Virus record (IMG/VR): IMGVR_UViG_3300020433_000743
Location: 1-64,000 of that record
DNA from: a virus
DNA length: 64,000 nucleotides
Reading direction: 5' to 3' (one strand)
In this document: piece by piece, positions 3,378-64,000 of the stretch
Position numbering within the stretch: the first letter of the stretch is position 1
Layout: every line of letters begins with the position of its first letter
The notes under the pieces: generated by a model
Told to the model about the DNA's origin: nothing
Seen by the model: only the letters and a program-made list of their open reading frames with translations
Database searches by the model: none
Translations under genes and position numbers: made by a program

Positions 3378-3639
3378 CTTCGTCAGGTCTTTTGATTTTG
3401 TTCAACTCATTCAAAACATGAATCATTTCTTCTTGCAATCTTTCAATTCTCTGGTTAGCAGATTCAAGTTGTGAGTGTATGAAAGATGATTCATCTACAT
3501 CATCATCTTGTTCATCAAAGATACTATCTACTGGTCTATCATAATAGGGGTATAACCAGTTCTCAATCTCATGTACAATGACCCAGATTATCTCATGGAT
3601 ACCAAAGAAGAATCTTTTTATTTTTTTAATTAATCTCAT
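3364..3639 (-). CDS. Coiled-coil protein, unknown
   Basis: 91 residues: a basic N-terminus (MRLIKKIKRFFFG) and aromatic amphipathic segment that may bind a membrane, then an acidic stretch and a heptad-like region (about residues 55-85, IERLQEEMIHVLNELNK). Start at 3639 makes a TAATG overlap with the upstream GT6 gene. Position between two glycosyltransferases suggests an adaptor that holds them at the membrane; that is inference. Confidence 0.65.
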   Translation of the reverse strand: MRLIKKIKRFFFGIHEIIWVIVHEIENWLYPYYDRPVDSIFDEQDDDVDESSFIHSQLESANQRIERLQEEMIHVLNELNKIKRPDEDGKE

Positions 3640-13018: not shown

Positions 13019-13021
13019 AAT

Positions 13022-13927: not shown

Positions 13928-14790
13928 TCTTCGATTCTCTCCAGAATAACTTCTTTACCAATTCTATTATACTGAAGATAATCTACACCATTGTAAATGG
14001 GATCTTGATCTATTTGATAGTTAGTCCAATCACCAAAGTAAGGACGATTAACATCAATGATCCCTGCAATAGCATCTATAGAAGATCCTACATCAAGGAA
14101 TACTGCATCAGTATACTTCTTTAGCCTATGTAGGAGACCAGACTTGACGTGTCCTATACCAACTAAGAATATTTTAGAGGTAGAGTTTTTAAGTTGTTCA
14201 CCAACCATCTTTTCTGTTGCATCAAGATCATCACAAGCAAACTTTTGAGGAATAGTAATATAGTCCTCAAACTTTTCAATACCCAAATAATCTTGATACT
14301 GTTCTGCTTCTAAAATATTTTCAATAATATTTAATTTAGTATTAGCACCAAGTAAACCTATCTTTCCTGCAAAGGTTTGTAGTAACCATTTGTTAGCAAC
14401 TAGACCATACCCATACTCTGCAGGATAATCAATCTTCCTAGCAATTACTTCTCTAAAATTAGCCATGTTCTCTGGATATATTTCACAAGTATAGTAATCA
14501 CATAGTTGTGCACCCCTTACAAATGCTTCATGGTCTATTTCTTCATAAGGTTTTCCCAGAGCCCTCTTACCAGGTGTTGCACTCCCAACAGATCTTTTCT
14601 GTAAGAAATAATAATCTCCATCACCAAATTTGTAAAAGGTTTTACTCTCACCTTTATCTACAAGATCAACTAAGAGAGATTTAAACTCTTCTAATTTTTC
14701 TTGGAATTTTGGAAACGCAGTTTTATCACCAAAACAATAATGGGAATCTAAATTTTCTGATCCCTCAATTTTATACATGCTTAGATACAT
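13924..14790 (-). CDS. GT-D-type glycosyltransferase (SP_1767/DUF1792-like)
   Basis: 288 residues. FYKFGDGDYYFL near 60 matches the (R)xGDGE motif of GT-D enzymes and VFLDVGSSIDAI near 234 matches their conserved C-terminal DxGSxxDAI. The start at 14790 is 2 bases past the upstream stop; an eight-residue longer frame is less likely. Assignment rests on these two motifs. Confidence 0.7.
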   Translation of the reverse strand: MYLSMYKIEGSENLDSHYCFGDKTAFPKFQEKLEEFKSLLVDLVDKGESKTFYKFGDGDYYFLQKRSVGSATPGKRALGKPYEEIDHEAFVRGAQLCDYYTCEIYPENMANFREVIARKIDYPAEYGYGLVANKWLLQTFAGKIGLLGANTKLNIIENILEAEQYQDYLGIEKFEDYITIPQKFACDDLDATEKMVGEQLKNSTSKIFLVGIGHVKSGLLHRLKKYTDAVFLDVGSSIDAIAGIIDVNRPYFGDWTNYQIDQDPIYNGVDYLQYNRIGKEVILERIEE

Positions 14791-14792
14791 AG

Positions 14793-15980
14793 TTACTCCC
14801 AGAACCTCCACCAAGGTTTTTCTATTTCTACAGTAGGTTCTTCTACCTCTGCAGGTTGTGGTGCATTGTCTTTAAAATATTGTAAGACCCAGTATATAAC
14901 ATAATCAATATCCTCATCATTCATACCAGGATGACATGGTAAACTAATTAGTTTTTTCCATTCTACATTTGCTACAGGATAATCACGTTGATTCATATCC
15001 TTAACAACATCATATAAATGGAGTGGTTTAAAATGCACACTAGTATGTATCTTCTTATCAGCAAGGTAATCTATAAGATCATCACGCACTTCTGGATCTA
15101 CTTTAGCACAGTAATACTGAACAGTTTCACTATGTGGAGGTGCTTGAATAACATCACCTAACTCTTCATTATATCTTTTCTGTACATGCCTTCTCCATTC
15201 TAGATTCTTAGGCAACTTTTTCATTTGCTCCAAACAAATTGCTGCTTGAAGATCAATCATATAACACTTATAACCTAACATATCTACTTCATAATCCCAA
15301 GAATAGCCAGGCTTTCCTGTTAGACCATCATCCTTTTTAACTCTGGAATATGTACTGGTAATTCCTAACCAAGTCATAGGAACTAACTTATCATATAACT
15401 CTTTATCATTTGTAGTAATCATACCACCATCACCACAAGGCATTGTTTTAACTGCTTGGAAAGACCAGACAGCAACATCACCCTTTGTACCTGCACCTTC
15501 TGTATAACAACTGTGTGCACAATCTTCTATAATTAATCCATCATAAAACTTACGGATCTCATCTATAGGAGCAGGAACACCTGCCTGATTTACAGCAATG
15601 ATTGCTTTAGTATTAGGTTTTAAACTCTTCCTTACATCCTCTGGATCTAAACACATGGTAACTGGATCTACATCTACAATATTAGATGTACAATTATTCC
15701 ATAAAGGAACAACAGCAGTAGTCATAAAAGATATAGTAGGATTAATAATATCACAATCTTTAATTCCAAGTGCTTTCAAAACTAAGTCTTGGCCACTGGT
15801 AGCACTATTAACTGCTACAGCATACTTAGCACCCACCATCTCAGCAAACTCTTTTTCAAACTGAGCAACCTTAGGGCCTTTACCCCACCAACCACTTTCA
15901 ATTGATTCTCTAATAGCATTTACTTCTTCATCTCCACCAACTGGACGAAGAACAGGTAACATGGTGTCTCTAATTTCCAT
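14793..15980 (-). CDS. DegT/DnrJ/EryC1-family sugar aminotransferase
   Basis: 395 residues, full family length. PLP-dependent: aspartate in IIEDCAHS near 151-156 and the Schiff-base lysine K178 in FQAVKTMPCGDGGM. It transaminates a nucleotide-linked keto sugar. Two possible substrates are made by this operon: the 4-keto-6-deoxy products of Gmd (giving perosamine) and of RmlB (giving 4-amino-4,6-dideoxyglucose). A C-terminal tail after residue 375 (PAEVEEPTVEIEKPWWRFWE) is outside the fold. Confidence 0.9.
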   Translation of the reverse strand: MEIRDTMLPVLRPVGGDEEVNAIRESIESGWWGKGPKVAQFEKEFAEMVGAKYAVAVNSATSGQDLVLKALGIKDCDIINPTISFMTTAVVPLWNNCTSNIVDVDPVTMCLDPEDVRKSLKPNTKAIIAVNQAGVPAPIDEIRKFYDGLIIEDCAHSCYTEGAGTKGDVAVWSFQAVKTMPCGDGGMITTNDKELYDKLVPMTWLGITSTYSRVKKDDGLTGKPGYSWDYEVDMLGYKCYMIDLQAAICLEQMKKLPKNLEWRRHVQKRYNEELGDVIQAPPHSETVQYYCAKVDPEVRDDLIDYLADKKIHTSVHFKPLHLYDVVKDMNQRDYPVANVEWKKLISLPCHPGMNDEDIDYVIYWVLQYFKDNAPQPAEVEEPTVEIEKPWWRFWE

Positions 15981-15981
15981 T

Positions 15982-16644
15982 TTAATTTAACTTATAAAGA
16001 TTATGATCTGTATCATTATTTACTGTACCTAAAATTTCATACTTTTCAGTCATCTTAGGTAGGCCTAATTGATCCCATTTAGGTTCACTTAATATAGCAC
16101 AGTTTGTAACTTTTGGCAAAACAGTAAACATCTGTGCAACCTCCTCAGGAATGTGATCATTCCCATGGAAGAAATTTAATATTGAAACACATTCAAAAAC
16201 TGGTCGATCAAAGTAACCAAAGAAATCTATAAAGGTTCTAAAGTTTCCGATGTATCCATATTTCTTCCCACCATAATGATGTTCAAAAGCAGCATCAGAT
16301 GTTCTCACACAATCTTCTCTAGGGTCTACACCTACAGAAAATATATCATTCTTATTACATAGGAAAGAGAAATGATTATTAGCACATCCCATATCTAAAT
16401 TAGATTTGATATTGTTCTTCTTAAAAAGATCAATTACTTCCATCCAAAAATCATACCTTGTGTGTTTAGCATAAGCATCTTCCTTATAAAAATCAGTAAT
16501 ACCTTCATCATCAAAGTGACCCACACAATTTGCATGCCATCTGATATCTTGATTGTTACTATACCATCCACGTGTCTGAATGATATTATCATATGAATAG
16601 TCATTAAAACTACTCATCATATTAAAGATAGTGCTCTTTTCCAT
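15982..16644 (-). CDS. SAM-dependent methyltransferase-like protein
   Basis: 220 residues. NLDMGCANNHFSFLC near 92-106 looks like motif I of class I methyltransferases (DxGCxxxxxS) and SVGVDPREDC like motif II. No acceptor clue. Start at 16644 uses the ATG that overlaps the upstream stop (TAATG). Sugar O-methylation fits the operon. Confidence 0.7.
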   Translation of the reverse strand: MEKSTIFNMMSSFNDYSYDNIIQTRGWYSNNQDIRWHANCVGHFDDEGITDFYKEDAYAKHTRYDFWMEVIDLFKKNNIKSNLDMGCANNHFSFLCNKNDIFSVGVDPREDCVRTSDAAFEHHYGGKKYGYIGNFRTFIDFFGYFDRPVFECVSILNFFHGNDHIPEEVAQMFTVLPKVTNCAILSEPKWDQLGLPKMTEKYEILGTVNNDTDHNLYKLN

Positions 16645-17369
16645 TAGCAAATGTGAAAGTTATTTAAGTCTCTAGTATTACCACTTCGTTCCCATTCGTT
16701 ACGAACAATGCCTAACCAATCAAGTATTTCATATTGTACTTTCTTCTCATGAATAAACTCATAGAGATGTACCTCTGATGAAATATGTTTATCAGAAAGT
16801 TCTTGTAATCTATCAGCACTATACTGAGCATACTCTAACATATCAGCAGTCTTCATAGAAAAATATGTATCATTAAAATTATCCTTTTCATTACATCTAA
16901 CTGCACCATCAAAATATATGTGACAGTTTTGTACAACAACCGCACCTTCAGATACTGCACTTCTTTCAAATGAATAAGGACAAGTCCACATTCTTCTTCC
17001 AGTTACATAAGAAATATTATCATATTGAGGAAGTTCATCCTTCAGTTCTGATAATGCTTCATTCAACATTAATAATTCACCACAACCTTTATTTCTCTGA
17101 CCTGCATTAGCTTGACTTCCTAATGATATGATTTCCATGTTAGAAAAATATTCCCTTATCTTAGGGTTCTTAATTTCATTAGGATCATCAATAGTATTTT
17201 CAACCAATACCATATCATAATTACTAGGCATTATCCTCTCAAGTTGTTGAACTGTCTGATAATATTCCTCTTCCCTATAATCACATACAGATGGTTTAAG
17301 TTGTTCAGGCCTAATAGAACAAAATACTAATGCTAAGTTATTAGGTCTAATAATTTTAGGGGTTATCAT
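16644..17369 (-). CDS. Unrecognised protein of the glycan operon
   Basis: 241 residues, soluble, alpha/beta in appearance (LALVFCSIRP at the start, YDMVLVENT near 55, DNISYVTGRRMW near 117). The order of a beta strand, a short acidic loop and QANAGQRNKG resembles nucleotide-sugar glycosyltransferases of the GT-A fold, but no DXD is evident. Flanked by fcl and the methyltransferase with overlapping ends. Confidence 0.6.
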   Translation of the reverse strand: MITPKIIRPNNLALVFCSIRPEQLKPSVCDYREEEYYQTVQQLERIMPSNYDMVLVENTIDDPNEIKNPKIREYFSNMEIISLGSQANAGQRNKGCGELLMLNEALSELKDELPQYDNISYVTGRRMWTCPYSFERSAVSEGAVVVQNCHIYFDGAVRCNEKDNFNDTYFSMKTADMLEYAQYSADRLQELSDKHISSEVHLYEFIHEKKVQYEILDWLGIVRNEWERSGNTRDLNNFHIC

Positions 17370-18283
17370 TTTATATAATCCTGATAAGTTGATTTAATAC
17401 CGTCACGTAAACTAATAGTAGGTTGCCAACCCATTGATTTAATTTTACTCACATCAAGAACTTTGCGTGGAGTACCATTAGGTTTGGATGTATCCCATTC
17501 TATTTTTGTATTTCCAATAATACCACTAACAGTTTCAGCAAGTTCTTTGATAGTTATATCTTCTCCTGTACCTACATTGATGGGTGATGCTTCATTATAA
17601 TTATTGAGTAAAAGATGAAGTGCTTCTGCTAAATCATCCACATGAAGAAACTCTCTTCTAGCAGAACCATCACCCCATAGAGTAACTTTATCATGACGAA
17701 GATGTGCTGCCTCATGAAACTTACGTATCATAGCAGGAAGAACATGTGATTTTTCTAAATCATAGTTATCATTTGGCCCATATAAATTTGTAGGCATTAC
17801 TGATATAGCATTAAAACCATACTGTTGACGATATGCCTGACACATTTTAATACCTGCAATCTTAGCAGTTGCATAGGCATCATTGCTAGGTTCTAACGCA
17901 CCAGTCATTAGTTCTTCTTCTTTGATTGGTTGGTTAGCAAACTTAGGATAGATGCAAGATGAACCTAAGAAGATAAGTTTCTTTGCACCATAACGGTAAG
18001 CACAATCTATGATATTAGTTTGAATCATCAAGTTATCATAGATGAAGTGGGCTGGTGATTCGGTATTAGCACCTATACCACCTACCTTTGCAGCAGCAAG
18101 GAAGACATAATCTGGTTGATTAATTCTAAAAAATTGCTCTACTCTACTTTGAACTGTTAGATCCCAATGAGATGAAGGTGAAGATATGATATTATAAAAT
18201 CTTTTCTTCTTAAGCATACGGACTATAGCCGATCCTACTAGTCCTGTATTACCTGCAACATAAAATTTACTATTACTGTCCAT
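17366..18283 (-). CDS. fcl: GDP-L-fucose synthase
   Basis: 305 residues. [16 protein letters not shown] binds NADP(H), FLGSSCIYP holds the catalytic Ser and YATAKIAG the YxxxK pair; [14 protein letters not shown] is diagnostic of GDP-fucose synthase (WcaG/Fcl). Epimerises and reduces GDP-4-keto-6-deoxymannose to GDP-fucose, the donor for the GT11 at 5173. Overlaps gmd by 11 bases, giving the classic gmd-fcl pair. Confidence 0.95.
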
Positions 18284-19277
18284 AAAGTACCATGTCTTCT
18301 ATTAATTGATCAAAAGTTATTTTAGGTTCCCAACCTAATTTTTCTTTTGCTTTGGTTGGATCTCCTAACAAAGATTCAACTTCAGCTGGTCTAAAGTATC
18401 TAGGGTTGACTTTAATGACCGTTTTTTGGGAGGTTAAGTCATAACCAAATTCATCCATTCCCTCACCTCTCCACTCTATTTTAAAACCGAAGAAGGGTGC
18501 TACCTTATTAACAAAATCTTTAACAGAGTATTGTTCTCCAGTAGCGATAACATAATCATCTGGTTCATCTTGCTGAAGCATTAACCACATTGCTTCAACA
18601 TAATCCTTTGCATGACCCCAATCTCTTTTTGCATTAAGATTACCGAGTTCTAATATACTCTGAAGTCCAACAGATATTTTTGATAGACCTTTTGTAATCT
18701 TACGAGTTACAAATGTCTCACCTCTTCTTGGACTCTCATGGTTAAAAAGAATACCAGTGCTGCAATGCATTCCATATGCTTCACGATAATTTTTAATTAT
18801 CCAATATCCATATAGTTTTGCAACTCCATATGGAGAACGTGGATGGAAAGGAGTGGTTTCTGTTTGTGGTGTTGCTTGCACAAGACCATAAAGTTCTGAT
18901 GTAGATGCTTGATATATTCTAACATCTTTCTCCATTCCTAGTGATCTAACTGCTTCAAGAACTCTAAGAGTTCCTATAGCATCTACCTGTCCAGTATATT
19001 CTGGTATCTCAAAGGAAACTTTTACATGACTCTGAGCACCTAGATTGTATATCTCTTGTGGTTTAACTTTTTGAATAACACTAATCAAACTAAAAGCATC
19101 AGTTAGATCACCAAAATGAAGTTTTAGTTTTGGATAGATATGATCTATTCTATCTGTGTTAAGTAATGAAGCACGACGAACAATTCCGTGTACCTCATAT
19201 CCTTTTTCCAATAGTAGTTCAGCAAGGTAAGAACCATCCTGTCCTGTAATACCTGTTATTAAGGCAACTTTAGTCAT
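18273..19277 (-). CDS. gmd: GDP-mannose 4,6-dehydratase
   Basis: 334 residues. [19 protein letters not shown] is the Gmd start, with [10 protein letters not shown] (catalytic Thr/Ser, Glu) near 125, [10 protein letters not shown] (YxxxK) near 150 and [16 protein letters not shown] near 178. Makes GDP-4-keto-6-deoxymannose, which Fcl converts to GDP-fucose and the DegT enzyme could convert to GDP-perosamine. Confidence 0.96.
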
Positions 19278-19795
19278 AATTCTTCGAAGGAATGTCCTTT
19301 TGTATCTTTGAGAGAAAGAATAGGATCACCATCAAGTGGCCATTCTATATCTACAGAATTCCACATCAAAGTTCTTTGATGTTGTGGGTAATAATAATCA
19401 GTACATTTATATTGAAACTCTGCAGTATCACTCAGAGTATAAAACCCATGAGCAAAACCAGGAGGAATCCAAAGTAGTTGTTCTGGTCTGTCTAGTACTA
19501 TACCAAGAGACTTACCAAATGTCTCAGAATGTTTTCTTATATCAACAAATGCATCATATACAGCACCCTGAGTACAACGAATCAGTTTACCTTGAGGATG
19601 TTCTATTTGATAATGAAGACCTCTTAGTACACCCTTAGAAGACTTTGAATGATTGTCTTGAACAAATTCATAGAAACCAATTTCTTTTTGAATTGCCTGT
19701 TCACTATAGGATTCCATAAAGAATCCTCTATCATCTTCAAACTTATCTACAGTAATAAGTAAGACATCAACTAGATTAGTTTCTTCTACTTTCAT
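19274..19795 (-). CDS. rmlC: dTDP-4-dehydrorhamnose 3,5-epimerase
   Basis: 173 residues. [19 protein letters not shown] (catalytic His) and [22 protein letters not shown] with [13 protein letters not shown] are the RmlC cupin signature. Acts after RmlB in dTDP-rhamnose synthesis. Overlaps rmlB by 20 bases. Confidence 0.95.
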
Positions 19796-20711
19796 ACCAT
19801 TGTATTGTTTTTAATAAACCCTCTTCCAGACTATGCTTAGGAGAGAAATCTAATTCAAACCTTATTTTAGCATTATTAATAGAATATCGCAAGTCATGAC
19901 CTGGCCTATCATCAACATATTCTATCAAATCCTCACTTGCATTCATCATTTTAATAATAGTCTTTACAAGATCGTTATTTGTAACTTCACATTCTCCACC
20001 AATATTATATTTTTCTCCTACCTTACCATTATTAAAGACATTAAGAATACCTTCACAATGATCTTCAATATAAATCCAATCTCTTATATTCTCACCTTCA
20101 CCATACACAGGTATCTTTTTACCCTCTAATATATTAGTAATTGTTTTAGGAATTAATTTTTCTAGATGCTGTCTAGGGCCATAATTATTAGAACAATTAG
20201 TAATAATAGTTGGGAGACCATATGTATTGTTATAGGCTTGTACAAAATGATCACTTGCTGCTTTAGATGCTGAATAAGGATTCATTGGATCATATGCGGT
20301 CATCTCAGTAAAGGATTGATCATACCATTTAAGAGAACCATATACCTCATCAGTAGAAATATGATGAAACTTTTCTACCTCATATTTAACTGCAAGATTA
20401 AGAAGATTTACAGTTCCTATAATATTAGATTGAATAAAAGGATCTGGATCATTAATAGAATTATCTACATGAGTTTCAGCAGCAAAATGAAATATAGCCT
20501 TTGGTTTATACTTTTCAAATAGTGTTGTTAACTGATCCTTAGATGATATATCTACCTGTTCAAGAGGATATCCTAACGGATATAAATTTTTTTTATTAGA
20601 AGCATATGAAAGTTTATCAACTACAACAATATCTTTATAGCCCTTTGATGATAAGTAATGTACAAAATTACTACCTATGAATCCTGCACCACCAGTAACA
20701 AAAGTAATCAT
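19776..20711 (-). CDS. rmlB: dTDP-glucose 4,6-dehydratase
   Basis: 311 residues. TGGAGFIGSNFVHYL, HISTDEVYG (Thr-Asp-Glu triad), YSASKAASD (YxxxK) and NNYGPRQ are all present. Converts dTDP-glucose to dTDP-4-keto-6-deoxyglucose. Shares one base with rmlA. Confidence 0.96.
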   Translation of the reverse strand: MITFVTGGAGFIGSNFVHYLSSKGYKDIVVVDKLSYASNKKNLYPLGYPLEQVDISSKDQLTTLFEKYKPKAIFHFAAETHVDNSINDPDPFIQSNIIGTVNLLNLAVKYEVEKFHHISTDEVYGSLKWYDQSFTEMTAYDPMNPYSASKAASDHFVQAYNNTYGLPTIITNCSNNYGPRQHLEKLIPKTITNILEGKKIPVYGEGENIRDWIYIEDHCEGILNVFNNGKVGEKYNIGGECEVTNNDLVKTIIKMMNASEDLIEYVDDRPGHDLRYSINNAKIRFELDFSPKHSLEEGLLKTIQWYESRRN

Positions 20712-41026: not shown

Positions 41027-41203
41027 CTACTTCTGTGACCACCTCTTTCTAGCACCAGGCATCAATCCTCTTGCTAAGATTGGTGGTTTCTTTTTCTTGT
41101 TAAACACTGGAGGTGCTTCCCCTCCAACGGCTCCTGCAATAGCACCACCGCCAACATTGTTGACTGGTGCATCTTCGTCCATGAATTGTCTAAAAGTTTT
41201 CAT
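41027..41203 (-). CDS. Small basic protein with capsid-targeting-like leader
   Basis: 58 residues. MKTFRQFMDEDA resembles the T4 internal-protein leader (MKTxxEFxxE), with a possible prohead-protease site after MDE. Then a Gly-rich segment and a basic tail (NKKKKPP, ARKRWSQK). ATG overlaps the upstream stop (TAATG). Candidate internal head protein. Confidence 0.7.
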   Translation of the reverse strand: MKTFRQFMDEDAPVNNVGGGAIAGAVGGEAPPVFNKKKKPPILARGLMPGARKRWSQK

Positions 41204-41597: not shown

Positions 41598-42119
41598 TTA
41601 GCTATCAGGTAAGATTGCGTCGTCATTAGCATCACCAGTAATGAATCCATCTCCACCACCAGCAACTAGTGTTTCGGTCTTAACTCTTGCAACACCGTGC
41701 ATATCTGTATATGTAGTAATTCCAACCCATCCAGAACATGCTGGTTTGTACTTGGAACCATCATCTCTTGCAGCTTGTGCTTCCGCTACATCTACACCGT
41801 AGATTTGATTAATACCGAAAGATCCACCTCTAACTTCATATAAAGGTGTCTCACGAATTTCGTAATCCACATCTGAGAATGAACCAGGAAGATCAAGTCT
41901 TTGTTCATCTAATGTGATTTGAGTATTGGAATCTATACTCTTGATTATACCCTGACCTGGCCCAGCACCATCAGTTGCTAGTGTAAGTACTTGTCCTACT
42001 TTAACACCATTTCCTGCTGTCCAAGCAATACCTCCACTTTGTTTCGTTACTACTCCAGCAGTCGAACAGTTTACTTTTCCTGTAGAATAAACTGTATCTT
42101 TTTTACCCCAAAGAGGCAT
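41598..42119 (-). CDS. Probable virion structural protein
   Basis: 173 residues, starts MPLWGKKDTVYSTGKV, beta-rich with many Gly, Val and Thr (GVKVGQVLTLATDG, ITLDEQRLDLPG), one or two Cys. A perfect late promoter lies 34 bases upstream. Fold and context suggest a head or tail decoration protein. Confidence 0.75.
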   Translation of the reverse strand: MPLWGKKDTVYSTGKVNCSTAGVVTKQSGGIAWTAGNGVKVGQVLTLATDGAGPGQGIIKSIDSNTQITLDEQRLDLPGSFSDVDYEIRETPLYEVRGGSFGINQIYGVDVAEAQAARDDGSKYKPACSGWVGITTYTDMHGVARVKTETLVAGGGDGFITGDANDDAILPDS

Positions 42120-42386: not shown

Positions 42387-43163
42387 TTAATCATAAACTT
42401 TTTTACCTGCCTTAATTCTACCTGATCCTTTTGCGTCTGAGAACTTTATTCCGTGTTTTCTACTATCTGATCTTGTTGCGTCTGCTTGTTTTTTTGCTTT
42501 AGCTTCCTTTGCTTTCTTATAAAAATCCACAAACTTCTGTCTACTTTTTGCTCTGTCTTCGTAGTTTTCAACCAATTTACCTTGTGGTTCGTAACCACAG
42601 TTCCACTTACGAAGTGACTTATTAATTCTTGAATCTGGATCTCTTGCAGTCTTAGCGGAGGTGAGTTTCTTTTTCATACCCTTCATTCTCTTACAGAATG
42701 ATTTTCTCCTGTTCGCTGACTTAGATCCTTTCTTTAACTTAGATGGTTTAGTTGTAACAGGTGCTTTTAAATCAGAACCAGGATTCTGTGCTTCGTAAGA
42801 CTTTCTCCCTTTCTCATTTAAACCACCTTCACTATTCTTTCCTGCCTTTTTTGTCCATGCTGCACCTTCACTGTGCACAATCTTTTCATCTTTCTCATTA
42901 CGTGCAAGATTTTTTGCTCTTTCTTTTTTAGAGATCTTTGGCCCACCAATTGGATCTCCATACTCATCTCTCTTAATTGCTTCTTCTACCTTTTTCTTTT
43001 CGGGTAAACCTTTATGCTTAGTCTTTGCAAACTTCTTCGCATCCTTCATACTAATTTCACTAGCAACATCTGATACTTCAGATGAAGGATTCTTCATCTC
43101 ACCCTTTTGGGCTGCACGAACCATCCCAAAAAATCTTTGTTGCTTTTTAGATACTGCTGGCAT
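42387..43163 (-). CDS. Very basic DUF3008/DUF6321-type protein
   Basis: 258 residues, strongly basic. Residues 1-55 (SKKQQRFFGMVRAAQKGE, KFAKTKHKGLPEK) resemble DUF3008; a middle part (GGLNEKGRKSYEAQNPGSDL, RRKSFCKRMKGMKKKLTS, RINKSLRKWNC) resembles DUF6321. Likely binds nucleic acid, for example DNA inside the capsid. Overlaps its upstream neighbour by one base. Confidence 0.75.
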   Translation of the reverse strand: MPAVSKKQQRFFGMVRAAQKGEMKNPSSEVSDVASEISMKDAKKFAKTKHKGLPEKKKVEEAIKRDEYGDPIGGPKISKKERAKNLARNEKDEKIVHSEGAAWTKKAGKNSEGGLNEKGRKSYEAQNPGSDLKAPVTTKPSKLKKGSKSANRRKSFCKRMKGMKKKLTSAKTARDPDSRINKSLRKWNCGYEPQGKLVENYEDRAKSRQKFVDFYKKAKEAKAKKQADATRSDSRKHGIKFSDAKGSGRIKAGKKVYD

Positions 43164-43516
43164 TAGGTTCCTAAGCCTCCTTTACGCACTGCCCGTACAT
43201 TCACATAATCCTGTGTGCTCTTGTAACCTTTTGCTTTTGCTTTTGCATCTAATGCTTTGCTCTTTGCCTGTTGATCTTTTTTCTTTGCTAACATTTTAGT
43301 GTACTTACCAGTACCCTCATCAGACTTAGCACCTTTCACTTTCTTAGGTTCATTAGCACCCATGCGTTGTTTCGCATATTTTTTGGCTACATATTGAAAT
43401 GCCTTATCATCTTTAGCAGTTCCACCCTTTGTTACGGGTTTACCTGTCTTGGTATCTGTACCCTTCTCTTTCTCAAAACGATTGAGTTCGGTTAAAAATT
43501 CTTCAAAATTTTTCAT
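43163..43516 (-). CDS. Basic protein with capsid-targeting-like leader
   Basis: 117 residues. MKNFEEFLTEL matches the T4 internal-protein leader with a (L/I)xE prohead-protease site (LTE, residues 8-10). The rest is Lys/Ala-rich and repetitive (KAKAKGYKS), like DNA-packing internal proteins. Overlaps neighbours by one base at each end. Confidence 0.75.
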   Translation of the reverse strand: MKNFEEFLTELNRFEKEKGTDTKTGKPVTKGGTAKDDKAFQYVAKKYAKQRMGANEPKKVKGAKSDEGTGKYTKMLAKKKDQQAKSKALDAKAKAKGYKSTQDYVNVRAVRKGGLGT

Positions 43517-45732
43517 TACATACCTCTATCGGCCATGAATTTTTTAAATGCAGGAGAGTTGATTCCTCTCTTTGGATCTCTCATTCTAGCAGCTTTAGAT
43601 CTCTTTGCATATGGTTTATCAGACTCGTCTGGATCCTTATGCTTTTCAGGATTCATAGCAACTTGTCTATTTTCTAAGATACCTCTAATTAGATCAATAC
43701 CTTCTTTGTATAATGCACTTGCTTCTTTATGCTTGCCTTGATTGGTTAAGGACTTAACCTTTTCCATCTTCTTCCTCTTAGCAAGTTGCATAGCAGTAGG
43801 TTTCTTTTCATTGTAATACTTACCAGTTCCTGACTCAGGAGTAGCCATACCTTCATCAATTCCTTCCTCTTTTACACAGTTAGGAACTTTTTTTCCACCC
43901 TTATCCTTAGTGCCTTTTGCTTTGTAACCATCCCAACATTTATCTGCACCTACATTCTTACGTGCTTGCTTAAGACTTTCTACATTAAGAGTTTTTGGAT
44001 AGTCCTCGTCACCTGGTTTAGCAGGTTTTTCACCACGTTTTCTCTTTGCGTGAATGTTATCCCAAAGACCTTTCTTCTTACCTTCAACTAATTCACCTTC
44101 TGGTTCCTTAGAAGCCATGATACCTTGTGCTCTCAATTTATTTTTAACAAGATTAATTGCAGTAGGAAGTTCTCTTGGATCTCCAGTTCCATTAATTGTT
44201 GTTGGAATTGCAGCACCAGCATCGAAAGTTACATCAACCTTTGCTGATGGTGTATCATCTTTCTTTTCAACAGGTCTATCAATCTCACCATAAGTTCCTT
44301 CGAACATAGCACTCTGCCAAGATTTTAAACCTAACCTATTGGTAGATTCTTTCACACCTTTTTTAGCCATGGCTTTTTTAATTGCTTTGTCTCTTGATCC
44401 AAAATACTCATCCTTACCAGATTCGATTTTACCATCACCATCATAGTCTTTCTTGGCTTTCTTTTCTTCCACTTGAACTTCCTCCTTGTTGTGTACATGT
44501 GCAAGATAAGTAGGAGATTTCTTCTCTACCGTACCACCTGCTCTTTTTTTCGCTTTGTTACCAGCACCCCTATCAGAATCTGGCCAATCACCACCACCTT
44601 TGGTAGCTTTCCTTGAATAACCTTTACCACCTAATCTTTCATCAAGGACTTCCTCCTTCATACCCTTAGTCTTTACACCTCTTCTTGCTCTGTGCTCTTC
44701 TCCTCTTTTTGCTGCAAGTTTTGCTCTCTCCGATGTGCCTTGACCACGAGGCCCAGCTCCAGCTGGATCGAAGTGACCTTTTTTACCAAACCTTCTCTCA
44801 TTTCGGTCTGCTGCTACACCAAATACTTTTTTATCATCTACCTTTGCTTCATCAAGGACTTCACCCTCCAATTCAGTATGTGCAACTATGTCTGCACCTG
44901 CACCAGATCTAACTGCTTGCATTTTCTTTTGGAGAATCATACGCTTTGCTATAGCAACTCGTTTCTCCTTTGGATCCATTTTGGGTTTTTCTTCTTTATC
45001 AGGTTCAACCTGTTCAGATTGAGTAGGGTTAATAGTAACCTTATTTTTACCCTTCATTACATCAATCTTCTTATTATTAGCTTCAGGATTTTCTCCCTCA
45101 CCTACCTCAGCAATAAATTCTTCCTTAACCTTTTCTACATCACCAGGAATACCTTTACCTGCTTTTACACTAGCAGTTGCTGCTCCTTTCTTTTTCTCAC
45201 CTTCATATGGTGTACCTGCTCCACCAGTCATCTCAACAGATGCTATGTTAGGATTCTTTCTTAGTTCAGAGATCTTTGCACGATCAGCCATTCTTACGTA
45301 TGATCTACCAGTCTTCTTATCCTTTACTCTTACTTTAAACTTTTTACTTACTTCTGCTTCAACTATTTCTTCTTCTTTCTTACCACCACCAATAGTAAAT
45401 ACACTATTCAATACATCAGAAACAGAAGACTTTACAGTATCAGTAATATCAACAAAATCGTAGGACTCACCAACAAGCATCTTCTTAGCAACTGCCTTAA
45501 CAGGGCCAGGTGCAGGTGACTTTCCTAGTTGAGAAAGATATGCTCTTTTTAATGAAACAGGGTCTGCTTTTTGACCTTCTTTAAATCCTTGCTTTACCTT
45601 ATACCTAACATCATATGCAAGTTGACGTGCTTGCTTTCTAACTTTCTGGTCGGCACCTTGATCGCCACCACCAGAAGGAGCAGGTTTAGCAGGTTGTGCA
45701 GAGGGATTTTCTTCAACTATATGGTTACTCAT
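43516..45732 (-). CDS. Large Lys/Glu-rich virion-associated protein
   Basis: 738 residues of low complexity: alternating charged blocks, several KxxxEEVLDE-like segments, an EF-hand-like loop DYDGDGKIESGKDE near residue 420, and a basic C-terminus. Lies between genes with capsid-targeting leaders and after a CATAAATA box, so a virion-internal or scaffold role is likely. Function unknown. Confidence 0.7.
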   Translation of the reverse strand: MSNHIVEENPSAQPAKPAPSGGGDQGADQKVRKQARQLAYDVRYKVKQGFKEGQKADPVSLKRAYLSQLGKSPAPGPVKAVAKKMLVGESYDFVDITDTVKSSVSDVLNSVFTIGGGKKEEEIVEAEVSKKFKVRVKDKKTGRSYVRMADRAKISELRKNPNIASVEMTGGAGTPYEGEKKKGAATASVKAGKGIPGDVEKVKEEFIAEVGEGENPEANNKKIDVMKGKNKVTINPTQSEQVEPDKEEKPKMDPKEKRVAIAKRMILQKKMQAVRSGAGADIVAHTELEGEVLDEAKVDDKKVFGVAADRNERRFGKKGHFDPAGAGPRGQGTSERAKLAAKRGEEHRARRGVKTKGMKEEVLDERLGGKGYSRKATKGGGDWPDSDRGAGNKAKKRAGGTVEKKSPTYLAHVHNKEEVQVEEKKAKKDYDGDGKIESGKDEYFGSRDKAIKKAMAKKGVKESTNRLGLKSWQSAMFEGTYGEIDRPVEKKDDTPSAKVDVTFDAGAAIPTTINGTGDPRELPTAINLVKNKLRAQGIMASKEPEGELVEGKKKGLWDNIHAKRKRGEKPAKPGDEDYPKTLNVESLKQARKNVGADKCWDGYKAKGTKDKGGKKVPNCVKEEGIDEGMATPESGTGKYYNEKKPTAMQLAKRKKMEKVKSLTNQGKHKEASALYKEGIDLIRGILENRQVAMNPEKHKDPDESDKPYAKRSKAARMRDPKRGINSPAFKKFMADRGM

Positions 45733-45747
45733 TGGAAATCCTTAGAT

Positions 45748-47031
45748 TCAATTACTCTTTTTTCTATATTTATTTATGAATTGTTTTCCCCAGTCTTGGC
45801 CAGGAACCATTGACTTAGCATAATTGAGCAATGCAGGGGTACCAACTTCACGTTGGTTTGCAGGAACACCAGAAACTTTAGTATCGTTATTGTACTTGTT
45901 AGCTTCTGTAACATCCTTGATCCACGACTTGAACATAACATTATCTTCAGTCACGCAGATCAAATAGTTTGTGCCTCTACGGATAATCCTACCAACCAAT
46001 CCGTGGTTAAGATTTTCAACTAAATCACCAACTTGATATATCTTTTTACCTACAAAATGTTCTCTTAAATTTTCCCAGTCTAACTTAGGTGCGATTTTCC
46101 AAAGACTCCATCCTTCTTTAATATTCATACCTGCACGAATATTTTTAAAAAGTTCTCTAGCAACCTTCTTATTCATTGCTGTTGGAACACCTTTTAAGAA
46201 GTTTTCAAAATCATTCTCTGCAGCATACTTTCTTTGCTTTGATGCAGACATTCCTGTTATATCATCAGCATCAGGATCTCTATCACCAGCAGAACGAACT
46301 TCTACTTTATCAAAGTCATAATGTAATCCGTTGTAATTATTGACTAACTTATCAAATTCTTTCTGTCTATCAGCACCACCTACAATTCTTACTCCTGCAT
46401 AACCATCCATATGAGCCTTCTTCAATACATCAAAGATAGTTCTATTCTGAGCATCATTAACAATTCTCTCACTATGATTAGGGAACATCTGTCTCATCAC
46501 AGCAACTTTCTGATCAGCATCTAAAGGATTCTTTTTCTTATCCTGACTGCGTGAAGGTACTATAATATAGTCACCATCATCAGAAGATTTAGCCACAGTA
46601 TCTAATAATTTCTCATGTCCTGTTGTTGGTGGATTAAATCTACCAAATGCAATAGTTAAAGTTCCCTTTGTTTTCTCAACTTGAGGAGGCATTAACTTCT
46701 CAGGATTTGCGGGTGCATCTGGATCATCCTCTTGTTTCATAGGTTCCTGAGGTGCAACATCCTGTTGAGGTACTTTACCTTTTGGTTGTGCCTGTGGTTG
46801 TGGTTGTGCTCCTGCTGGCAGTTTACCAGATAAATTCTTTTCTTTTTCTGTTGATGCTGGATCTTTACCACCTACTTTCTGTCTCTTATTATAAAACTTT
46901 AATCTTCCTTTCTCTGTCTTTGCAACAAACTCTCCATCCTTGTACCAGCCTCCATGACCATCACCAGTCAACCCCATACGGGCTGCCTGTTGTGTAGCAG
47001 ATTCTGATAAAAAATTTAAAAAGGATTTCAT
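45748..47031 (-). CDS. Nucleotidyltransferase with capsid-targeting-like leader
   Basis: 427 residues. Residues 1-10 MKSFLNFLSE match the T4 internal-protein leader with a (L/I)xE cleavage site (LSE). A Gln/Pro-rich linker (about 70-115) leads to a HIGH-type nucleotidyltransferase domain, 122-275, with FGRFNPPTTGH (TxGH) and NDAQNRTIFDVLKKA, most like NMN/phosphopantetheine adenylyltransferases. The C-terminal 140 residues include a VGDLVENLNHGLVGRI beta domain. If packaged, the enzyme would be injected with the DNA. Confidence 0.8.
   Translation of the reverse strand: MKSFLNFLSESATQQAARMGLTGDGHGGWYKDGEFVAKTEKGRLKFYNKRQKVGGKDPASTEKEKNLSGKLPAGAQPQPQAQPKGKVPQQDVAPQEPMKQEDDPDAPANPEKLMPPQVEKTKGTLTIAFGRFNPPTTGHEKLLDTVAKSSDDGDYIIVPSRSQDKKKNPLDADQKVAVMRQMFPNHSERIVNDAQNRTIFDVLKKAHMDGYAGVRIVGGADRQKEFDKLVNNYNGLHYDFDKVEVRSAGDRDPDADDITGMSASKQRKYAAENDFENFLKGVPTAMNKKVARELFKNIRAGMNIKEGWSLWKIAPKLDWENLREHFVGKKIYQVGDLVENLNHGLVGRIIRRGTNYLICVTEDNVMFKSWIKDVTEANKYNNDTKVSGVPANQREVGTPALLNYAKSMVPGQDWGKQFINKYRKKSN
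45771..45778 (-). promoter_or_regulatory. Possible late promoter CATAAATA
   Basis: NATAAATA box 39 bases before the ATG at 45732, inside the end of the upstream gene. Confidence 0.5.
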
Positions 47032-47249
47032 TTATTTAATTCTAATTTTATCTCTTCTTCATGTGCAAGGATATACTTAACGAGACTTGTTCGTAAGTTA
47101 TCATATTTATTTAGTTTCTTTTTAGAATGAGTCTTTTTCTTAGGAATCTTAATACCATAGAAACAGTACTGTAAGAAAGCATTAAACCTCTGCTGACCTG
47201 ATAGATCAGATTCAAAAGTTTTTATAAGGTTTTTCATTTCAGATTTCAT
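47028..47249 (-). CDS. Small basic protein, unknown
   Basis: 73 residues, MKSEMKNLIKTFESDL, basic centre (KIPKKKTHSKKKLNK). Its N-terminus only loosely resembles the capsid-targeting leaders of its neighbours. Overlaps neighbours by 1-4 bases. Confidence 0.65.
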   Translation of the reverse strand: MKSEMKNLIKTFESDLSGQQRFNAFLQYCFYGIKIPKKKTHSKKKLNKYDNLRTSLVKYILAHEEEIKLELNK

Positions 47250-48565
47250 TAAAATATCTTTCCATAAGGGCCATATCTTTTACCTGCTTTCTCTGCAGTA
47301 AAGATTAAAGAAGTACAGAAGTCATCTCTTTTATTTTTTGGAAGAGTCATTAAGGCATATAAAAATCTAAGTTGTTGTAATTTAGATACCGCAACCCAAG
47401 GTTGACCTCTATTAAGATCATAGGTTTCTTTTATATTAATTATAGCAGTTTCTACATCAACCTTTCCAAGATCTACAAACCTATCAGAAATTAATTCATC
47501 AATGATTTTTCTATAATCATCTTCGACATCTCTAAACTCAGTTTTATTTCTTGGAAATGCTTTATTGTTTGGTTCATATGATTTCATTATACCATAAACT
47601 TTCATTAAATCCAATACTAATTCTACCGTTGCTTTACCTAATCTTGCTGCACCTTTACCTACAATAGTTGGTTCCCATTTTAAGTTACTAAATTTTGTAG
47701 AATCATTTGCTTTAATTTGAACTTTAAAATCTATTTTTTTCCCACTAACAATACCAGGATCTTTAATAGTTAGAATTGTATCTTGAGTTAAAGTAGCTGC
47801 ACCTGGTGACCCACGTTTTTTTCCTCTCTCAATATCTTTCTTTGCTTTATCAGGATCAATTCTTTTTGTTCCTAAAAGACACTTTGCACTATCAAGAGTC
47901 ATTTTAGTAGCCTTAAGGTTTTTAAAAAACGATCCACTTACATTAACTTCTTTCCATGATGCAGAACCCCCACCAATTTTTTTCAATGAGATTCCCATTA
48001 TTTGTTTTGTCTTAAAAAGAGCTCTAAAAATAGCATTGAGTTTTGCTAATTCAGATTCTATAGAGGCAGTTGGATCTTTCTTATTCTTGAAAGATTCCAT
48101 AATTTTTTTCTTCCACTTTGCTTCATCCTGTATTAACCAAATATCAGCAGGGTTCCAATTATCTTTTTGTCCTATATCAAATTCTTCTTTAACTAAATCA
48201 GTAACCCAATCCATAAAAGTCTCTCCACCTTTACTACCAGGTAAAATATATGCAGGTTTAGGGCCACCATCACGAGAAAATTCTGTAAATTTTGGTTTAC
48301 CTATTTTCTTTAAAAGTATTTTTGTTTGTTTATAAAAATTTATTACCCACTCACCATCAATATCATCATCCCATTCACATTTACCAACAGTTTTCCATAC
48401 TTTAACTAACTCATCATATGTTACACTATCGTTAACAATATCATTAGCACTATTAAATACAACGTTGTCTTGAATAGCCCTTTTAAAAACCCACGCAGAA
48501 CCTAGTTCCTGCATGCGAGTCATTGTTGCGGAAGAAACATCTTTACTAGTTTTCTTCTTAACCAT
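47249..48565 (-). CDS. Probable virion protein, unknown
   Basis: 438 residues, basic, mixed helix and strand, starts MVKKKTSKDVSSATMTRMQ. No catalytic motif recognised. First gene of a late-type cluster; a GATAAATA box lies 25 bases upstream. A structural or internal head protein is inferred from context. Confidence 0.7.
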   Translation of the reverse strand: MVKKKTSKDVSSATMTRMQELGSAWVFKRAIQDNVVFNSANDIVNDSVTYDELVKVWKTVGKCEWDDDIDGEWVINFYKQTKILLKKIGKPKFTEFSRDGGPKPAYILPGSKGGETFMDWVTDLVKEEFDIGQKDNWNPADIWLIQDEAKWKKKIMESFKNKKDPTASIESELAKLNAIFRALFKTKQIMGISLKKIGGGSASWKEVNVSGSFFKNLKATKMTLDSAKCLLGTKRIDPDKAKKDIERGKKRGSPGAATLTQDTILTIKDPGIVSGKKIDFKVQIKANDSTKFSNLKWEPTIVGKGAARLGKATVELVLDLMKVYGIMKSYEPNNKAFPRNKTEFRDVEDDYRKIIDELISDRFVDLGKVDVETAIINIKETYDLNRGQPWVAVSKLQQLRFLYALMTLPKNKRDDFCTSLIFTAEKAGKRYGPYGKIF

Positions 48566-57134: not shown

Positions 57135-57685
57135 TGGAATTTGGGGCCTGAATAAAAAAGTGTTATGCTGTGTCTTTTTCCTTTTGTTACTGGAGTAACT
57201 CTATGAGGAATGCTTGATTTAATTATAACAACATTACCTGGTTTTGCAAGTTCTCCAACTTCTCTTTCTCCACCATTACCAAATATAAAAAATTTACCTC
57301 CTTCATATGGTTCGAGTGAAGCATTGATTAACATTGTGAATTTAATATCATAGGTTGCACTATTAGATCCATCACAATGCCAACCATACTCTCCTTTGTG
57401 CTGACTAGAATATTCATTTAGTCTTATGTAATTAGCATCATATTGAGGCCAAATATTATAACCAAACTGTTCCTGATTGATTCTTAAGAATGCTTGCTCT
57501 AATGGTTCGAATGGTTTTTTAAAATGAATCCATTGAGCCATTTTAACATTTGCTATCTTAGTTACACCAATAGCAGGTTCATCTTCCGCATCTGCTGTTA
57601 CTTTAGAAAATGCATCATGTAGTTGTACTAAATCTTCAGATGAAAAAATGTCAGGAAAATACCAATATGCTAAATTAGTTATCAT
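57131..57685 (-). CDS. 2OG-Fe(II) dioxygenase
   Basis: 184 residues. Complete triad and 2OG site: H103-x-D105 (WHCDGS), H161 (IPHRVTPV), R171 (GKRHSITLFY). P4H-like phage oxygenase. Overlaps glgP by 11 bases, so it is made together with it. Target unknown; a protein hydroxylase is usual for this group. Confidence 0.88.
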   Translation of the reverse strand: MITNLAYWYFPDIFSSEDLVQLHDAFSKVTADAEDEPAIGVTKIANVKMAQWIHFKKPFEPLEQAFLRINQEQFGYNIWPQYDANYIRLNEYSSQHKGEYGWHCDGSNSATYDIKFTMLINASLEPYEGGKFFIFGNGGEREVGELAKPGNVVIIKSSIPHRVTPVTKGKRHSITLFYSGPKFQ

Positions 57686-60068
57686 TTATATTCCAGATTC
57701 TATCACAATAATCTTTTATAGATCTATCAGAGGAGAAGAAACCAGATCTTGCGATGTTCAACAATGACATTCTATTCCATGTATCCTTTTTTGTCCAGGC
57801 CTGACTGACTTTATCTTGAGCATTGATATAATCCTCAAAGTCAGCCATTACAAAAAATGGATCATTATTTTTTAAATTATATATTAAAGGTGAGAACATA
57901 TCTCTATCACCTGCACTGAAATGTCCACCCTCAATAAGACGTATTGCTTCACCTAATTCTGTACCAATATAATGTTGTGGATCATAATGATTCTTTTGCA
58001 GTTCAGCAATCTCAGATTCAGTCTTACCAAATAAGAAGAAGTTCTCCTCACCCACAAGGTCACGTATCTCTACATTAGCACCATCTAATGTACCTATAGT
58101 CAGAGCACCATTCATTTGGAACTTCATGTTTCCTGTACCTGATGCTTCTTTACCTGCGGTAGATATTTGTTCTGATAAGTCGGCAGCAGGATATACTTTC
58201 TCTCCTAGTTTTACACTATAATTTGGTAGGAATATAACTTTTAAAAGATCTCTACTATCAGGATCATTATTAACTACCTCTGCAATATTACAAATAAAGT
58301 TAATAATCATCTTAGCCATATAATAACCTGGTGCTGCTTTACCACCAAAGATTACCGTGCGTGGAACAATATTATCTGTCTGTCCATTTTTAATACGAAG
58401 ATACTGTACAATAACTTCAAGAGCACGAAGATGTTGTCTCTTATATTCATGTATTCTTTTAACATGAACATCAAACATACTTAAAGGGTTAACAGTAATA
58501 CCGAGATTATCTTGAATATAAACAGATAACTCATGTTTACCAAGTAACTTAGTTTGTTCAATCTTTTCTAATGCTTCTACATCATATTGATTGTCTTCTA
58601 ACTTTTTAAGTGACTCCATATTAGTAATCCAATCTTCACCAAGATATTCATTTAAAAAATCCTTAATCATAGGAGACACCCATCTGCGTGGAGTAACACC
58701 ATTAGTTACGTTAGTAAACTTATGAGGCCACAAGTCATAGAAATCAGGCATTAAGTTTGTCTTAATCAATTCCGAATGTAATGCTGCAACACCATTAACA
58801 TGATGAGATCCTACAGTTGCAAGATGAGCCATACGAACTGACTTACTACCAGACTCATCAATAATAGATAATTTACCTAACATAGATTCATCACCAGGAT
58901 AATTCAATCTTACTGTCTGTAAGAACCTAGCATTAATTTCATAGATAATTTCTAAATGCCTTGGTAGTAGATATTTGAATAAACCAAGATCCCATTTTTC
59001 CAATGCTTCTGGAAGTAGAGTATGGTTTGTATATGCTATAGACCTAGTTGTTATATCCCATGCAGTATCCCAATCAAAACGTTTATCATCTACAAGTAAT
59101 CTCATCAATTCTGCAACAGCAATAGAGGGATGAGTATCATTAAGTTGTACTTGATATCTGTCTGGAAAATCTTCTAAAGGTACTCCACACTTTTCTAAGT
59201 TACGAATCATATCTTGAAGAGACGCACTTACAAAGAAGAACTGTTGTTTCAATCTAAGTTGTCTTCCTTGATCTGTACCATCATTAGGATAAAGAACTTT
59301 AGATATAGTTTCTGATTGTACTCCTTGTTCTACTGATCCAAGATAGTCACCTATGTTAAATGCATAGAAGTCAAATATCTCAGTAGCATCTGCTCTCCAT
59401 AGTCTTAGTCTATTACAACTATCAACTCTATATCCTAACTGTAATACATCATAAGGAACTGCTACAACCTGTTCTTCTGGAACCCAACGACATCTGTAAT
59501 TACCATGATCTGATGTATAGTGTTCTACCTTACCACCAAATCCTACAAGACAAGACTCATCTGGATAACACATCTCCCATGGCCAATCTCCATGCAACCA
59601 GTTATCAGTAACTTCTATTTGTTGTCCTTCTTTTATTTCTTGTTTAAATATACCAAACTTATATCTTATACCATAACCAGTAGCAGGTACTTTCAGAGTC
59701 GCAAGAGACTCCATATAACATGCAGCAAGACGACCAAGACCACCATTACCTAATCCTGGTTCTTCTGCTAATTCTAGCACCTGATCTAATGTTGTATTAT
59801 AATCCTTTACTGCTTCTTCTGCTTCTTTATATACACCTAAATTTAAAAGATTATTTCCTAACTGTGGGCCAATCAAAAATTCTGCAGAAAGATATGCTAC
59901 TTTTTTTTCTACACTACAAATATCAGGTGCAAGATGATAGTCTATCATCCTATCCCTTATAGCATAACACAATGCCATGTAGATATCATGAGATGAAGCA
60001 GTCTCAGATCTCTTCCCTAATGTATAATAAAGACGATTCTTGATTGCAACAGATAAATTACTCGTCAA
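57675..60068 (-). CDS. glgP: Glycogen phosphorylase, full length
   Basis: 797 residues, normal bacterial length. N-terminal GLGNGGLGRLAACYMESLATL, YGIRYKFGIFKQ, QLNDTHPSIAVAELMR, GKAAPGYYMAK and the PLP motif EASGTGNMKF with Schiff-base K649 followed by NGALTIGTLDGANVE. All catalytic landmarks are intact. Cleaves glycogen with phosphate to glucose-1-phosphate. Apparent start is TTG (60068), overlapping regA by 11 bases, after AAGAAG. In transcription order it sits between regA and the oxygenase, inside what is normally a pure replication block. Glucose-1-phosphate is the substrate of phage RmlA. Confidence 0.97.
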   Translation of the reverse strand: MTSNLSVAIKNRLYYTLGKRSETASSHDIYMALCYAIRDRMIDYHLAPDICSVEKKVAYLSAEFLIGPQLGNNLLNLGVYKEAEEAVKDYNTTLDQVLELAEEPGLGNGGLGRLAACYMESLATLKVPATGYGIRYKFGIFKQEIKEGQQIEVTDNWLHGDWPWEMCYPDESCLVGFGGKVEHYTSDHGNYRCRWVPEEQVVAVPYDVLQLGYRVDSCNRLRLWRADATEIFDFYAFNIGDYLGSVEQGVQSETISKVLYPNDGTDQGRQLRLKQQFFFVSASLQDMIRNLEKCGVPLEDFPDRYQVQLNDTHPSIAVAELMRLLVDDKRFDWDTAWDITTRSIAYTNHTLLPEALEKWDLGLFKYLLPRHLEIIYEINARFLQTVRLNYPGDESMLGKLSIIDESGSKSVRMAHLATVGSHHVNGVAALHSELIKTNLMPDFYDLWPHKFTNVTNGVTPRRWVSPMIKDFLNEYLGEDWITNMESLKKLEDNQYDVEALEKIEQTKLLGKHELSVYIQDNLGITVNPLSMFDVHVKRIHEYKRQHLRALEVIVQYLRIKNGQTDNIVPRTVIFGGKAAPGYYMAKMIINFICNIAEVVNNDPDSRDLLKVIFLPNYSVKLGEKVYPAADLSEQISTAGKEASGTGNMKFQMNGALTIGTLDGANVEIRDLVGEENFFLFGKTESEIAELQKNHYDPQHYIGTELGEAIRLIEGGHFSAGDRDMFSPLIYNLKNNDPFFVMADFEDYINAQDKVSQAWTKKDTWNRMSLLNIARSGFFSSDRSIKDYCDRIWNINDN

Positions 60069-62971: not shown

Positions 62972-63122
62972 TTTTTCTAGACCTATTCTTAATAATAATC
63001 CTATCGTTTTCGTAGTCAGCCACAAACTCCAAGACATCCATGTGATCCCACATTAACTCTTCATAGAGTGCATTCAGTCTCTCCATATCTTCATAGAGAT
63101 CATTTACATGTTCTTCGCTCAT
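62958..63122 (-). CDS. 54-residue acidic protein, unknown
   Basis: MSEEHVNDLYEDMERLNALYEE, helical, then a short strand-rich end (DRIIIKNRSRK). ATG overlaps the upstream stop (ATGA), supporting translation. Confidence 0.6.
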   Translation of the reverse strand: MSEEHVNDLYEDMERLNALYEELMWDHMDVLEFVADYENDRIIIKNRSRKNEVE

Positions 63123-64000
63123 CGAATAATTTGAATGTTGTTGTCCTCAGTCCAGAGTTCGACTTCATCTCTGAAACGACCATCTTGTTTTAGTTTGTCG
63201 TATCTTTTGGTTGCTTTACGTTTCCACCAAGAAATTATATTCTCTAAATGGAACTTGTCCCAATTCTGACCTTTCTTTAATTTATCTTCTTCTCCAAGTA
63301 ACACTTCTCTAATGTTAGCATATCCATAATCAGAAATATAAAATCTTTTCTTTTGAGTAAGTCCAAAAGCCATATCTATAACATCGTTGAACTTAGATAA
63401 CTTAGCATCTCGTCCATATTCTTTTAATGAATTCTTAATCCATGAAATCATTTTTGTTTGACGTTTCATTTTTTTAGAAGATGCCTTATTATCTGTAAGG
63501 GGTTGATTACCATTTAGTTTACTAAAATGATCATGAAGTTTATGGAAGGCATCTGCATGGAGCAGAGGAAGGAACTTACTCTCAGTTAGACCTTTATACC
63601 TTATATAAGGTTTAAGACCGTCATACTGCGATGCAGAGGTTGTAGAACCATATAAGGATGTAGTTTCAAATAATCCAATATCTTTCTCAAAGACTTCGTT
63701 CAATGTCTCTCTAGCAAAATGAGATACACATAGAAGTGCTAATAGTTTACCACCAAGATAATTGTATCCAAAAGGTTGTGATGGAACTATAACGAATCCC
63801 ATAACAGCATGACGATTGAATATAGAAAGATTAGGTTGATTGCCTAACCAAATATTTCTAGGTTTAGAATTAATAGTAGGAGAACCAAAACGAATGAATC
63901 CCAATACTTGTTGGGATCTTTTCTCATAGACCATCCAACGAAGTTCTCTACCTGGTATATTACTTTCGTTATTGTGTGATGAAACTGCTTTTAAAAGATT
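63119..64000 (-). CDS. DUF4338/DruA-like protein, start outside window
   Basis: The frame is open to base 64000, giving 293 residues without the N-terminus. GRELRWMVYEKRSQQVLGFIRFGSP and AVMGFVIVPSQPFGYNYLGGKLLALL are typical of the DUF4338 family, to which the Druantia defence component DruA belongs. It is also common in T4-like marine phages. Enzyme activity unknown. Confidence 0.75.
   Translation of the reverse strand, partial: NLLKAVSSHNNESNIPGRELRWMVYEKRSQQVLGFIRFGSPTINSKPRNIWLGNQPNLSIFNRHAVMGFVIVPSQPFGYNYLGGKLLALLCVSHFARETLNEVFEKDIGLFETTSLYGSTTSASQYDGLKPYIRYKGLTESKFLPLLHADAFHKLHDHFSKLNGNQPLTDNKASSKKMKRQTKMISWIKNSLKEYGRDAKLSKFNDVIDMAFGLTQKKRFYISDYGYANIREVLLGEEDKLKKGQNWDKFHLENIISWWKRKATKRYDKLKQDGRFRDEVELWTEDNNIQIIR

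Follow-up and report, generated by a model that had tools for sequence, protein, structure and literature searches.

A cyanophage nucleotidyltransferase with a T4-type leader as a probable cargo of the phage head

The window, the whole stretch of 64,000 nucleotides that was analysed, encodes a nucleotidyltransferase of the HIGH superfamily, the first ten residues of which are well supported as a T4-type capsid-targeting sequence. The enzyme is probably packed into the head and delivered with the DNA, because the leader matches the T4 tag and close relatives have been found in purified particles, and we consider it likely that it represents a new cargo of a known T4-type packaging route. The original prediction, made from the sequence alone, picked up a real signal and its reading was largely correct. 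In the available text of the relevant reports, this cyanophage core gene is repeatedly recorded among virion proteins, with carry-over allowed by the authors. A targeting leader of the T4 type, in which the mapped residues are conserved, offers a convincing and testable mechanism for this presence in virions. It also predicts delivery with the DNA for further proteins of cyanophages, a group of viruses that is abundant in the ocean, and a partnership with DUF6267 provides a second lead on the role of the enzyme.

The gene at 45748-47031 (minus strand) is a real gene of 427 aa with an ATG start by ORF calling, and it shares a 4-nt overlap with the upstream ORF. The window belongs to a 69,470-base virus record with genes for DNA polymerase, helicase, primase, nrdA/B, a mazG-like protein and purM, in an order resembling that of P-SSM2 and S-SKS1; the record is a piece of the genome of a T4-like phage of marine cyanobacteria. 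This fragment showed no head morphogenesis genes, and an Rfam scan of 45-50 kb gave zero matches. The closest annotated relatives of the enzyme are in T4-like cyanophages, including S-SKS1 (about 72% over 87%), P-SSM2_194 (59.7% identity over the full length, including the leader) and S-SCSM1 (46% identity). The S-SKS1 record has no CDS for the ortholog, the frame of which is interrupted. The features of the gene are as follows.

45748..47031, minus strand: HIGH-type nucleotidyltransferase with leader, 427 aa, ortholog of T4-GC190 / phrog_395
47002..47031, minus strand: residues 1-10, leader MKSFLNFLSE, putative capsid-targeting sequence with a predicted cut after E10; positions 4, 7, 8 and 10 constrained
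46861..46998, minus strand: residues 12-57, 'GDGHGGWY..GEFVAKT..G.LKF' module, related versions of which occur on unrelated phage proteins
46669..46860, minus strand: residues 58-121, low-complexity P/Q/K linker, 5-7% identity between subfamilies
46126..46668, minus strand: residues 122-302, catalytic domain, from invariant columns, Pfam, AlphaFold and Foldseek
45880..46086, minus strand: residues 316-384, beta-rich C-terminal module, phrog_4808

The predicted HIGH-type domain was confirmed by a match to PF01467 (CTP_transf_like) above the gathering cut-off (E=2.5e-9) and to phrog_395 (E=1.6e-103), together with an (H/T)xGH motif and a matching predicted fold. The catalytic motifs are FGRFNPPTTGH (129-139), GGADR (218-222) and SASKQR (262-267). 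AlphaFold modelled the catalytic domain with a pLDDT near 90, while the leader and most of the linker (residues 69-109) fell below 50. No relatives came up in PDB searches by sequence, whether with the leader, the whole protein or its profile; Foldseek matched the catalytic domain to NadM (2qjo, E=1.6e-5), PPAT (1tfu, 4e-5) and NadD (5db4, 6e-5), a set of matches which fixes the superfamily and not the substrate. The motifs FGRFNPP, GH, NPL, GxDR and SAS-x-x-R were invariant across 43 divergent members, which makes an active enzyme probable, and the pN/pS of the domain was about 0.19-0.23. The C-terminal module is a standalone 91-aa gene in some leaderless phages. Proteins of 91 aa resembling this module are annotated as NrdB or ribonucleotide reductase subunits, an annotation that looks wrong.

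The enzyme starts MKSFLNFLSE/S (the slash marking the site after E10), which follows the T4 IPII/IPIII pattern, MKTYQEFIAE/A; MKSFLNFLSES matches T4 ipII, MKTYQEFIAEARVG, and ipIII, MKTYQEFIAEASVV, in register. In a T4 stretch of 22 genes only ipII and ipIII passed the pattern, and ipI failed it. For IPIII, the ten N-terminal residues are enough to direct packaging, and mutagenesis has assigned residues 4 and 7 to targeting and residues 8 and 10 to processing (review of T4 head assembly, PMC9026906). The same positions were conserved when 43 representatives of three subfamilies, sharing 39-96% identity with the query, were aligned: F4 in 42/43, and F7, L/I/F8 and E10 each in 43/43, with positions 5, 6 and 9 variable. 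The claim that the N-terminus has the form of a T4 internal-protein leader is thus borne out by the in-register pattern and the conservation of the mapped residues. Subfamily B leaders lack one residue at the start (MRFRQFIIEA), and for this reason the register there is reached by alignment and not by count. Identity between subfamilies was 32-54% in the leader against 5-7% in the linker, and in all three subfamilies the pN/pS of the leader was lower than that of the stretch separating it from the catalytic domain. The pattern was kept in 240/241 homologs, a figure biased by its seeds as it derives from three leader-bearing searches, the exception being the broken frame of S-SKS1. Leaderless enzymes occur in cyanophages S-PM2, S-CAM3, MED4-213 and S-H9-1, and also in Cr30, Munch, PA5oct and a Vibrio phage; a search of IMG/VR with the Vibrio enzyme gave zero relatives.

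The frequency of the pattern was compared with that expected by composition. With the loose pattern M-x(1-3)-[FYL]-xx-[FY]-[LIVMF]-x-E, about 0.2 matches are expected among 218 cyanophage-genome proteins, and 0.03 with the strict pattern. S-SZBM1 has three loose-pattern proteins against a shuffle mean of 0.18, these being the enzyme and two small head-region genes. The record holds three plausible leader genes (start bases 47031, 43516 and 41203), all in one 6-kb cassette at 41.0-47.0 kb; a fourth match, an internal start of Hsp20, was rejected. The leader is also found with other bodies. An 892-aa protein of ACG-2014f with a different body begins MITPKSLLSFLSEA, followed by a module of the same kind; it is annotated as a cytitidyltransferase and gave no Pfam match. 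In S-N03 and S-CRM01 the module and a leader-like stretch are carried by other proteins, and in the S-CRM01 enzyme the leader is fused straight to the catalytic domain. Judged from these sequences, the leader is mobile and is also present on unrelated cyanophage proteins. The capsid-targeting reading draws on the constraint at positions 4, 7, 8 and 10, the occurrence of the leader on unrelated proteins and the presence of leader-bearing orthologs in virions.

The proposal that the enzyme is packaged is supported by published proteomics of four orthologs, cited here from the available portions of each report, and is not in itself new. T4-GC190 was detected in purified particles of S-SM1; it is encoded by S-PM2 and was undetected in the particles of that phage (PMC3037559), which has a leaderless version. 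The S-SZBM1 enzyme (S-SZBM1_140) was detected with two peptides and its neighbour S-SZBM1_139 with four (PMC9146016), the S-CREM2 enzyme (ORF154) was detected with three peptides (PMC10665884), and the NMNAT of S-SCSM1 is a virion protein by published proteomics and record annotation, most of its gene neighbours also being annotated as such (gp089, gp282, gp280, gp279 and gp277; PMC9602691). Leaders were read directly for S-SM1 (MKKFSAFLNE), S-SZBM1 (MRFRQFIIE) and S-SCSM1 (MKSFLQFLKE), and that of S-CREM2 was taken from the equal-sized enzyme of its relative S-CRM01 (MKLFNQFFKE). The contrast between leader and detection comprises five phages studied in different laboratories, four of them positive and one negative. 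In S-SZBM1 and S-SCSM1 together, only two of the five proteins with a leader were detected, the three missed being small, so in this small sample from two genomes detection cannot be predicted from the leader alone. Sequences like the leader site, FLAE-A and LTE-A, lie near the N-termini of the major capsid proteins of S-SCSM1 and S-SZBM1. No published peptide showing a cut after E10 was found in the literature searched. The packaging half of the explanation is already in the literature; within the literature searched, the leader as its likely reason appears to be new.

The genes following the enzyme resemble the virion cassette of S-SCSM1.

43516..45732, minus strand: 738-aa low-complexity modular protein, directly downstream of the enzyme, in the position of virion protein S-SCSM1 gp280
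43163..43516, minus strand: 117-aa protein with a second leader, MKNFEEFLTE
42387..43163, minus strand: 258-aa DUF6321 protein, the first 58 aa of which share 67% identity with virion protein S-SCSM1 gp279
41598..42119, minus strand: 173-aa protein, homolog of virion protein S-SCSM1 gp277 (E=5e-16)
41027..41203, minus strand: 58-aa ORF with a third leader, MKTFRQFMDE

Gene order agrees between the window and S-SCSM1 for the enzyme, the 738-aa, the DUF6321 and the 173-aa proteins. The 738-aa protein has only short stretches in common with gp280, and a 55-aa module in common with virion protein S-SZBM1_139. The 117-aa and 58-aa products are candidates for packaged proteins on account of their leaders. 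On the other side of the enzyme, 47249-48565 (minus strand) encodes a phrog_1462 protein with a stretch, NPADIWL...GISLKK, that resembles a PD-(D/E)XK nuclease pattern; S-SCSM1 gp282, which carries a virion-protein annotation, has a comparable stretch, with a pairwise E of only 0.087.

These data are best explained by a leader-tagged nucleotidyltransferase that is packaged in the head, freed of its leader and delivered with the DNA to transfer a nucleotide, a sequence of events to which we assign a fairly high likelihood. The first ten residues would function like the capsid-targeting sequences of T4, binding to the prohead core through F4 and F7 and being cut off by the prohead protease after L8-S9-E10, a compatible LxE site. 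The freed enzyme would be kept in the head and enter the cell with the DNA, like T4 Alt and the internal proteins, and there would pass a nucleotide, most probably the AMP of ATP, on to a small acceptor that carries a phosphate group.

As to the acceptor, the original prediction described the domain as most like NMN-type enzymes. This held in so far as the NCBIfam NMN-type models were the best specific matches across the enzyme family, weakly so; all scores lay far below the curated cut-offs (NadR NMN-AT 2.4e-6, NadD 3.4e-5, CoaD 9.4e-5), with 24-27 bits against the 112-341 of the NMN-type equivalogs. The NMN-adenylyltransferase idea has already been published for cyanophage orthologs, in the available text. 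NMN or NaMN may be the single likeliest substrate, at somewhat below an even chance. NAD synthesis is only a possibility, since neither the fold nor the profiles distinguish NMN/NaMN adenylyltransferases from PPAT, and since NadV is absent from the cyanophages sampled. Phage NadM is reported always together with NadV (PMC9503650). NadV (PF04095) was present in the Vibrio phage, in 0/15 sampled cyanophage genomes and not in the incomplete 69-kb record; a standalone salvage pathway would then need host NMN.

The commonest genomic partner of the enzyme is DUF6267. All 16 carriers tested had it, 15 of them cyanophages and the other a T4-like phage of Vibrio; as such co-occurrence is expected of two cyanophage core genes, adjacency and fusion are the stronger evidence. 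DUF6267 matched just upstream of the enzyme in 79/83 subfamily B and 78/80 subfamily C loci (about 96%), and S-PM2 has a fusion of the enzyme with the C-terminal half of DUF6267. Within that genome, S-PM2p139, annotated as a cytitidyltransferase, opens with this half, and the frame appears to be broken between S-PM2p138 and p139. The invariant residues of DUF6267 (K50-x-D52-G53, E366-G367-F-V and K378) are ones which we take to resemble ligase motifs I, IV and V, and the protein is predicted to be a covalent nucleotidyltransferase of the ligase/capping type. Neither sequence searches of the PDB nor Foldseek gave a significant match, ligase adenylation domains recurring among the weak Foldseek matches, so the ligase nature is an assignment by motif.

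An enzyme unrelated to NAD, acting with DUF6267 to modify a nucleic acid or a cofactor and in some lineages also packaged, is accordingly a serious contender at roughly a one-in-three level of belief, and it contests the substrate part of the preferred explanation and not packaging. Adjacency, fusion, co-occurrence, the ligase-like residues and the lack of NadV in all 15 cyanophages speak for it. It is weakened by the absence of a significant structural match and by Cr30, Munch and PA5oct, which carry the enzyme with no DUF6267 match. Adjacency, moreover, was seen in only 3/81 loci of the query's own subfamily, DUF6267 was not found in the incomplete 69-kb record, and the DUF6267 proteins of S-SZBM1 and S-SCSM1 are absent from the virion protein lists as available.

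Packaging itself would be challenged if an abundant enzyme were merely carried over and its N-terminus conserved for another use, such as binding a cell partner. The low peptide counts in S-SZBM1 and S-CREM2 fit this, and the proteomics authors themselves caution, in the available text, that an enzyme expressed at a high level could remain associated with particles purified on CsCl. Detection in four different phages, the like detection of neighbouring cassette genes, the constraint on exactly the mapped residues of the T4 pattern and the leaders on unrelated proteins make carry-over unlikely. Less likely still is a catalytically idle domain in a structural internal head protein: the gene sits in a cassette of low-complexity virion-type proteins, but the invariant catalytic motifs and the pN/pS of the domain argue against loss of function. 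A bolder extension is about as improbable, namely that T4-like cyanophages use the leader as a general import tag, shuffled between proteins, to load a changeable set of enzymes into the head, this one acting early with the phage-made, ligase-like DUF6267 protein. Were it true, the enzyme would act during the opening minutes of infection, for instance by regenerating NAD from NMN released by an NAD-using ligase, and NAD or nucleic-acid ends could withstand a host NAD-depleting defence.

The preferred reading, a packaged and delivered enzyme, has clear precedents. T4 IPII/IPIII and Alt share with it the ten-residue N-terminal leader, in the IPII/IPIII pattern and register, and orthologs of the window enzyme have likewise been detected in virions; here, however, the putative cargo is a HIGH-type nucleotidyltransferase, from a phage known only from a metagenomic virus record, and the leader, with its predicted cut, is followed by a DGHG module and a linker. 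The cyanophage T4-GC190 'citidylyltransferase' or NMNAT-like virion protein is an ortholog with the same catalytic domain and leader, differing by sequence divergence and in the content of its N-terminal module; in the available literature on it the leader is not discussed as a capsid-targeting sequence. NadM, NadR and NadD share the fold and the (H/T)xGH and SxSxxR motifs and are the best, weak, profile matches, whereas the window enzyme lies far below their family cut-offs, has no Nudix or kinase partner domain and comes from a group in which NadV is absent from the genomes searched. A parallel with Namat/NARP1 was rejected, Namat being a Nampt-type and not a HIGH-type enzyme.

Several other regions of the window were noted. 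PADLOC gave no match to any of seven proteins taken from the window or from the DUF6267 partner; a match to Druantia DruA at 63119-63934 (minus strand) was weak (E=6e-4, under the cut-off), and PADLOC found none. A surface-sugar block at 2589-20711 (minus strand) includes a GT25 glycosyltransferase, epimerases, GDP-mannose dehydratase types, a DegT aminotransferase and a GHMP kinase. At 57675-60068 (minus strand) lies a 797-aa carbohydrate (glycogen-type) phosphorylase (PF00343 at 1019 bits), possibly a carbon-metabolism gene, the sole close phage relative found being in cyanophage S-SCSM2R (70%).
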